This document shows positions 32,828 to 35,814 of a stretch of DNA of 64,000 nucleotides, piece by piece. The stretch lies in the NCBI GenBank assembly GCA_021773635.1, contig JAJFJV010000013.1, forward strand, positions 1 through 64,000. The letters are read 5' to 3'. The position numbers and the translations under genes are program-made. The notes below the pieces were generated by a model. That model was not told the origin of the DNA and ran no database searches. It worked only from the letters and a program-made list of their open reading frames with translations. The stretch is from Gammaproteobacteria bacterium. Lineage in GTDB: Bacteria > Pseudomonadota > Gammaproteobacteria > HK1. Every line of letters starts with the position of its first letter. Within the stretch, counting starts at the first letter, position 1.

Positions 32828-32993
32828 CGTCCTGCCGGTTGCAGCGAAGCGAAACACCGGCATCCAGGGGAACGAAGGTACTGCAACCTATCCCTCCTCC
32901 CAGCCCGATAAAGCGGTGTTTTACCATTGCCAGCAAAGAACTATTTGCACTGCAATTGATCCCTGGATTACCCACTTTCGTGGGTAATGACGG
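32828..32993. repeat. BIME-like paired hairpin repeat, copy B (in 520-base intergenic region)
   Basis: The left half reads CGTCCTGCCGG...ACCGGCATCCAGG, the right half CCTGGATTACCCAC-TTTC-GTGGGTAATGACGG. The right half is a perfect 9-base hairpin (32967-32975/32980-32988). The two halves are arranged head to head, as in copy A at 31702, with about 80 unrelated bases between. Downstream in the same gene-free stretch (32821-33340) lie a candidate small RNA and a strong terminator. Confidence 0.7.
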
Positions 32994-33114
32994 AGTGAGG
33001 GTCAATGCCCTTTTACAGAGCCGGAACATTATCTTTAAAGAACGCATGGACAATGGCCTACAAACAGTGGGGGCTTTGCCCATAGAGCCTGTGTGGCGAG
33101 TGATCTAGATTGAC

Positions 33115-33226
33115 ACCCTCGTGCACAAGGAAGCCAAGGAGGCCTCGGTGCACAGGGAGCCACACACGGACGTGGCGGTGCCCCTCACGGCTGGAAAGGA
33201 TTCCATCAGCCCGAGGGGCTTTTTTA
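33115..33226 (+). ncRNA. Candidate Csr/Rsm-type small RNA sequestering CsrA/RsmA
   Basis: A stretch of about 110 bases with no gene has repeated CAxGGAxG-like motifs: GGA at 33129, 33138, 33156, 33168 and 33198. Three sit in loops: AAGGA between GAAGCC and GGCCTC, ACACGGAC between GCCAC and GTGGC, and AGGA at the tip of the terminator hairpin. One lies in single-stranded spacer. A strong intrinsic terminator ends it. GGA in loops plus a terminator is the architecture of CsrB/RsmY/RsmZ RNAs. I found no convincing GacA box, and the 5' end is an estimate. Related genes (c-di-GMP and EPS) would be classical targets. Confidence 0.42.
33180..33226 (+). terminator. Strong intrinsic terminator
   Basis: GCCCCTC (33180-33186) pairs with GAGGGGC (33213-33219), and inside it GGCTGGAA pairs with TTCCATCAGCC, followed by six T. 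The hairpin is long and stable, oriented to the plus strand. It is 360 bases downstream of galE, too far for a simple galE terminator, which points to an independent transcript. Confidence 0.8.
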
Positions 33227-35128: not shown

Positions 35129-35365
35129 TCAAAGCATATCTCCCTTCTCGGGCGTGGCGTCTCTCACCTTGGCCAGGACACTTTTAAATTTCTTCCGACT
35201 TCCTCGCCTGGCCCGTTCAGAGAGATATTCCTCGGTCAACAATGCCGACATCTTTTCGGCCAAGGCAGTCGCCACAAACTGGTTGATGGATATGTGCTCC
35301 CTTCGGGCAAGTTCTCGAACACTCTCATGAAGGGAGTCAGGAAGCCTCAGGCTTAGCGTACTCAT
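35129..35365 (-). CDS. Ribbon-helix-helix antitoxin, 78 aa
   Basis: A 78-residue protein with MSTLSLRLPDSLHESVRELA and REHISINQFVATALAEK, the beta-strand and two helices of the ribbon-helix-helix fold (CopG/HicB-like). The C-terminal part is basic (RARRGSRKKFKSVLAKV) and could wrap the toxin. It overlaps the PIN toxin gene by four bases (35362-35365) and is downstream of it. Together they form a toxin-antitoxin pair with the toxin gene first. It is expected to bind the palindromic operator at 35791-35808. Confidence 0.85.
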   Translation of the reverse strand: MSTLSLRLPDSLHESVRELARREHISINQFVATALAEKMSALLTEEYLSERARRGSRKKFKSVLAKVRDATPEKGDML

Positions 35366-35814
35366 GATATTTCTCCTATGACTCGCAAGAATTCTGCCGG
35401 ACTGAGTGCCTGGATACCGAAACGGCCCACTTTTGAGAAATCTTTTAAATTGTGACTGATCAAGTAGCGACTTTCTGATTCAACTGCCAATTCAAGCACC
35501 ATGTCATCATCAGGGTCGTGAAGATGTGGGCGCCACAGAAAATGGATTTTCTGATGTCGTCCGACTCGGCACAAGTAATCAAGAAAGTCATCTATATCAA
35601 CGGCTGACAATCCAAATTCTCCCGCCAACCGTTTTGCAACAGCCTCATACTCGATTACCAGAGGCACCGAAAGCACAAACTCAAACTTATTCTCATCGAT
35701 GAGAGAAAGCAGCCTGAATGACGCACCTTGTCGAGAACGCAGGGCAGAAATCAAAACGCTGGTATCAAGAACAATCCTTGGGCGCATATTGGTATTATGT
35801 GTAATACCACGCAC
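35362..35814 (-). CDS. PIN-domain toxin, 141-150 aa
   Basis: The N-terminal motif RIVLDTSVLISAL gives the first acidic residue of the PIN nuclease site; Glu near VIEYEAV and Asp residues in HDPDDDMVLELAVESESRY complete it. The fold is that of single-strand RNases in toxin-antitoxin systems. Two starts are possible: ATG 35787 (MRPRIVLD) with no obvious binding site, or GTG 35814 with AAGG about 10 bases upstream. In the first case the operator is upstream, in the second inside the coding region. It is translationally coupled to the antitoxin. Confidence 0.85.
   Translation of the reverse strand: MRGITHNTNMRPRIVLDTSVLISALRSRQGASFRLLSLIDENKFEFVLSVPLVIEYEAVAKRLAGEFGLSAVDIDDFLDYLCRVGRHQKIHFLWRPHLHDPDDDMVLELAVESESRYLISHNLKDFSKVGRFGIQALSPAEFLRVIGEIS
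35791..35808. promoter_or_regulatory. Palindromic operator of the toxin-antitoxin operon
   Basis: A perfect inverted repeat, GGTATTA-TGTG-TAATACC, lies 3 bases upstream of the ATG at 35787. Its symmetric 7-base arms are typical of sites bound by ribbon-helix-helix antitoxin dimers, so autoregulation is likely. Confidence 0.65.

Follow-up and report, generated by a model that had tools for sequence, protein, structure and literature searches.

Results

An intergenic element downstream of galE

The window, by which we mean the whole 64,000-nt stretch of DNA that was analysed, belongs to a gammaproteobacterial genome of 2.5 Mb that is 99.6% complete and in which the element described here is single-copy. 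The element is intergenic: galE lies upstream on its own strand and ends 295 nt before it, and the downstream gene is convergent, on the opposite strand. Its surroundings are those of an exopolysaccharide locus, with PrsT, an XrtA/PEP-CTERM amidotransferase, galE and wecB. Elsewhere in the window, positions 1-25000 read as a prophage, with tail tape measure-, portal-, head morphogenesis- and terminase-like proteins on the minus strand, and a PIN-family protein (TIGR00305), putatively the toxin of a toxin-antitoxin pair, is encoded at 35362-35814, with the sulfate adenylyltransferase gene on one side and that of an HtrA-like protease on the other. The element has the following parts:

33116..33225, plus strand: predicted sRNA of about 110 nt, its putative start near 33114-33118 and its 3' limit at the end of the T run, based on fold, alignment and homologues
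33121..33153, plus strand: hairpin 1, from the fold and the covariation of its inner stem
33159..33176, plus strand: hairpin 2, a GCCAC/GUGGC stem with the loop ACACGGAC (33164-33171), from fold, covariation and SELEX consensus
33180..33225, plus strand: intrinsic terminator, GCCCCUC...GAGGGGC plus UUUUUU, with an apical AGGA, from fold and sequence

Between 33115 and 33226, GGA begins at 33129, 33138, 33156, 33168, 33193 and 33198 of the plus strand, and all but one of these six motifs are ANGGA. A preliminary description of this DNA had counted five GGA; the number needs correction, and the clustering beyond chance is borne out, as dinucleotide shuffles of the element contain 0.60 ANGGA on average and five were reached in none of 1000. 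Three ACANGGA fall within 40 nt, a triple that is unique in the 64-kb window (both strands, triples within 60 nt), where about 0.0015 would be expected. ACANGGA is the invariant core of the CsrA site defined by SELEX, and CsrA dimers bind ACARGGA-type sites, best of all in loops (PMC7652899); sequestration of CsrA needs several GGA (PMC2375449).

The predicted fold has an energy of -53.9 kcal/mol (z = -4.1), equalled by 0 of 200 shuffles. The outer helix of hairpin 1 joins GUGCAC (33121-33126) to GUGCAC (33148-33153), the inner stem GCC/GGC (33133-33135/33141-33143) closes an AAGGA loop (33136-33140), and ACAAGGA and ACAGGGA come after the two outer arms. The loop of hairpin 2 is near the SELEX CsrA site, with its ACA, GGA and GU (consensus from PMC7652899). 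The strong plus-strand terminator described earlier is real, with a stem at 33180-33219 followed by TTTTTT; a T run is absent after the element on the minus strand. Of the three GGA loops that had been proposed, AAGGA and ACACGGAC stand as described, and the AGGA of the terminator arm is the weakest of the three, because the minimum-energy fold leaves it only partly looped and one congener has lost it. At least two bases are unpaired in only two of the six GGA in the minimum-energy fold, no more than in shuffles (P = 0.25), and the case therefore rests on motif number, conservation and covariation rather than on accessibility.

Conservation within the genus

We compared the source genome (G000) with its congeners G002 (MAG OFTM50) and G001 (OFTM67), and "three congeners" below includes G000. 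Both carry the element at the same site, flanked by galE and a gene for a sulfate adenylyltransferase/APS-kinase fusion. Over the 71-nt body, identity to G001 is 90%, compared with 35-41% for the directly adjoining spacers. The G002 element is 96% identical, and blastn aligns nothing else of the intergenic region, the spacer between galE and the element being largely missing there. Hairpin 2 of G001 has two nucleotides fewer and keeps ACACGGAAGU, and the ACA.GGA..GU of this hairpin is kept in three of three congeners. The terminator stem of G001 is largely rewritten with its pairing preserved; its GGA motifs are lost, so they are not essential.

Two further features of the spacers were noted. 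Downstream of the G002 element, in the galE-sat spacer, lies a RAYT/IS200-like (REP-associated tyrosine transposase) ORF that reads as an insertion. A REP-like imperfect palindrome, CCTGCCGGTTGCAGCGAAGCGAAACACCGGCATCCAGG (window 32830-32870), follows galE, and is found in G001 and absent from G002.

Homologues in other genera and covariation

A covariance model and a relaxed pattern retrieved copies of this architecture from two g8 genomes and from the genera g7 and g4, all of the family, so that the conserved GGA/hairpin pattern on which the preliminary description had staked its reading extends over seven genomes in four genera when g1 is counted. A reversed control pattern gave zero matches. 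In the common plan, ACANGGA follows both strands of a GUGCAC/GUGCAC arm, the inner stem carries a GGA loop, and so does a short second hairpin. In g8 the second hairpin is followed by a strong terminator. No obvious terminator was seen in the g7 copy, whose first helix includes a G-U pair (GTGCAC/GTGTAC), with GCCC-ACGGAC-GGGC inside and CGCC-AGGGAA-GGCG as the second hairpin; hairpin 1 is divergent in the g4 copy. The remaining genera of the family yielded no recognisable copy, nor did a sample of 369 genomes from the class, at a sensitivity that would miss weak homologues, and a DNA search in plasmids gave no match.

Several pattern matches were rejected. Those in G279, G336 and G080 are not homologues and fall within coding sequence or in a terminator that separates transporter genes. 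The R3 matches in G277, G011, G013, G006, G016, G012:C197, G002:C17 and G005:C66 look coding or due to chance, as do the matches in G008:C3 and G002:C12, which lie within an rplL-like gene.

The stems vary with compensation among the relatives while the GGA sites persist. In an alignment of five sequences from g1 and g8 (a further row, an antisense terminator, contributes no cells to these helices), 97.1% of cells are paired, against 20-44% with slid strands, and five pairs are changed on both sides; the alignment was fitted to the model and thereby favours the structure, yet the contrast is still large. In hairpin 2, three of five pairs are changed on both sides in relatives. Unlike the covarying inner stem and hairpin 2, the outer helix GUGCAC/GUGCAC is near-invariant across genera, and this constraint may arise because the CAC of each strand runs into ACANGGA.

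By our reading of the sequences, the g8 element precedes a small gene (MAGLITMGLL...) adjoining an ApbE-like gene, the g4 element beside a PmbA/TldD-like gene, and the g7 element beside other genes. Because homologues adjoin different genes, the exopolysaccharide setting is genus-specific and carries no functional weight by itself; the location, once thought telling, is not.

A putative activator-dependent promoter

Upstream of the element, the promoter region contains the following:

33057..33062, plus strand: CCTACA box, 64 nt upstream of GTGCAC, a candidate UvrY/GacA-type half-site in a conserved patch of the congener alignment
33080..33085, plus strand: CCCATA, a possible degenerate second half-site 23 bp downstream, from the promoter alignment
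33106..33111, plus strand: -10-like TAGATT; comparable A/T-rich hexamers in homologues end about 11-12 nt before GTGCAC

The distance from the CCTAC box to GTGCAC is 64 nt in the three sRNA genes of the genus, 62 nt in g8 and 61-63 nt in the uvrY leaders described below, and the promoter alignment places a CCAT near -40 in homologues. No site at the element's promoter passed a scan for the sigma-70 consensus, which suggests that the promoter depends on an activator. The canonical UvrY palindrome TGTAAGN6CTTACA, by which UvrY/GacA-controlled sRNA genes are recognised, has no occurrence within two mismatches on the contig of the element; instead there is the CCTACA box at fixed spacing. The csrB promoter of E. 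coli carries an extra TGTAGGAGA adjoining the palindrome (PMC4682653), and since its reverse complement contains CCTACA, we infer that the box is a UvrY-type half-site. A further candidate for a UvrY-type promoter site, TGTAGGCCTTCGCCTACA on C14, was rejected because it lies inside a phage-type gene.

Csr circuit partners and the uvrY/gacA leader

GacA/UvrY is the response regulator that normally switches on CsrA-sponge RNAs. The genome encodes a canonical CsrA, as a sponge of this kind calls for, in the order lysC-csrA-tRNA-Ser-tRNA-Arg (110.5 bits, cut-off 73). A probable uvrY/gacA gene, assigned by its position before uvrC and pgsA, reaches 261.7 bits with the UvrY/SirA/GacA model, short of the NCBIfam equivalog cut-off of 280. 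The best BarA-like kinase aligns along almost its full length with 551 bits (next best 221), likewise short of the NCBIfam equivalog cut-off of 890.

Only one other occurrence of hairpin 1 was found in the genome, a weaker module in the uvrY leader. The uvrY/gacA leader of three of three congeners contains GTGCACATGGAAACCA.GG.AGGTCTTGGTGCACA.GGA, which corresponds to hairpin 1 with two flanking ANGGA and without the loop GGA. In G000 some 240 nt separate the module from the uvrY start codon downstream of it, and the module stands out as conserved where the rest of the leader has diverged. Boxes in the uvrY leaders repeat at about 22 bp (CCTACA, CCTAC, TTCCATGAC). The leader copies of hairpin 1 are at these positions:

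G000:C14:10203-10241 (L056:2004-2042)
G001:C7:228634-228672
G002:C13:287726-287764

Relation to known RNA families

The Rfam models CsrB, CsrC, RsmX, RsmY and PrrB_RsmZ gave no match at the gathering score in the 64 kb and none up to E = 10 at the locus and its homologues, and no Rfam family matches the element. The covariance search that the preliminary description had proposed thus came back empty; its Csr/Rsm-like assignment holds for the architecture, and the element does not belong to the CsrB/RsmX/RsmY/RsmZ families. The best genome matches to RsmZ lie elsewhere and below threshold; the one on contig C9 overlaps a terminator region before proB and is due to chance. In a limited literature search we found no description of the element.

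Discussion

Several features that mark CsrA-sequestering sRNAs come together at this locus: the predicted gene is free-standing with an intrinsic terminator, its GGA exceed chance, and GGA are conserved in loops or single-stranded positions. To judge from sequence and its conservation, the segment 33116-33225 is very probably a free-standing sRNA gene controlled by UvrY, whose RNA would sequester CsrA, with a putative feedback hairpin on uvrY. Transcription would begin near 33116 under an activator working through the CCTACA box, most likely phosphorylated UvrY/GacA, and the RNA of about 110 nt is predicted to end at the intrinsic terminator. Of its ACANGGA/ANGGA sites, two lie in loops and two flank the GUGCAC helix; they would bind about two CsrA dimers, and the bound sRNA would lift CsrA off its mRNA targets, as motif and conservation suggest. 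Through the copy of hairpin 1 with two ANGGA in the uvrY/gacA leader, CsrA may also act on the uvrY mRNA and so close a feedback loop.

Other explanations account for parts of the evidence. A trans-acting structured sRNA that pairs with mRNAs, with Shine-Dalgarno-like GGA loops and an incidental resemblance to CsrA sites, would make sense of the AAGGAGG in hairpin 1, a perfect Shine-Dalgarno string, and of the partly paired state of several GGA in the minimum-energy fold. What is kept between genera, however, is (A)NGGA in the loops of covarying stems and no long pairing seed, the loop sequence around GGA varies, and the combination of ACA.GGA and GU agrees with the SELEX site of CsrA, all of which make this explanation improbable. 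We consider it very unlikely that the element acts in cis, as the 3' UTR or terminator of galE or as the leader of a downstream gene. Although galE is on the same strand and ends 295 nt upstream, most of the intervening spacer is absent from G002, the element is preceded by a conserved promoter-like patch, the gene downstream is read from the other strand, and the homologues adjoin unrelated genes.

The nearly invariant GTGCAC is itself palindromic and a RAYT-type ORF adjoins the element in G002, as might be expected of a repeat, a mobile DNA element or a chance cluster of palindromes. Such an origin is nevertheless exceedingly unlikely for a single-copy sequence whose one weaker module elsewhere stands in the uvrY leader, whose compensatory changes are at the level of RNA, and for which no match outside the genus among the 369 class genomes reads as the same element. 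A short translated ORF starting at the GTG at 33121 can practically be dismissed: a mechanical listing does contain an ORF of 123 aa, but in G001 that frame is interrupted by stops and by a 2-nt deletion, no ATG occurs in the window copy, and the frames are broken in g8.

The genus might have captured a copy of the sponge gene, together with its promoter box, upstream of uvrY/gacA, where it became the leader of that gene, a scenario that we put forward tentatively and to which we give somewhat less than even weight. If true, the sponge RNA would have both its activator site and its CsrA-binding hairpin in common with its own activator's mRNA, forming a self-tuning loop from one duplicated module. 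The shared hairpin and promoter box tie the sRNA to uvrY/gacA, and feedback in the Csr circuit could be probed directly with point mutations in these two short RNAs.

Sequence conservation is lacking among Csr sRNAs, which family models miss outside well-studied orders. Because the covariance models are unmatched, the element is Csr/Rsm-like in architecture and not a member of those families; it is of a known functional kind, and its sequence family is new to Rfam. It thus provides a Csr sRNA family definable by sequence for a gammaproteobacterial lineage known from metagenome-assembled genomes. The closest likeness in form is to RsmX, RsmY and RsmZ of Pseudomonas (Rfam RsmX, RsmY, PrrB_RsmZ), which are intergenic, about 110-130 nt long, and carry several GGA/ANGGA in loops and an intrinsic terminator; RsmX-2 is a 110-nt sRNA gene (PMC7911923). 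The element differs from them in lacking a covariance-model match, in its promoter box, and in a hairpin 1 built as one long arm whose GUGCAC strands are each followed by ACANGGA. With CsrB and CsrC of Escherichia coli and Vibrio it would share CsrA sequestration under BarA/UvrY control, but the element and its homologues have 4-6 GGA, far below CsrB (22 GGA, and 14 in CsrC; PMC11882849), and match neither model. Pf2 and Pf3 of Pseudoalteromonas fuliginea are likewise lineage-specific Csr sRNAs, found by their GGA motifs, promoter and terminator and verified by EMSA and glycogen staining (PMC11882849). The likeness is one of description; they carry 21 and 9 GGA and are experimentally verified, whereas the element is known from sequence.

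By analogy, we infer that this RNA is the Csr sponge of its lineage, activated by UvrY, with feedback like that of varA (uvrY) in Vibrio cholerae, whose mRNA CsrA binds directly (PMC6550530). A GGA-bearing segment of a uvrY/gacA-family mRNA is a direct target of CsrA there, giving feedback, and would be one here. The bound segment of varA starts 18 nt before the start codon, whereas the module described here lies about 240 nt upstream, resembles hairpin 1 of the sRNA, and stands behind a similar promoter box.
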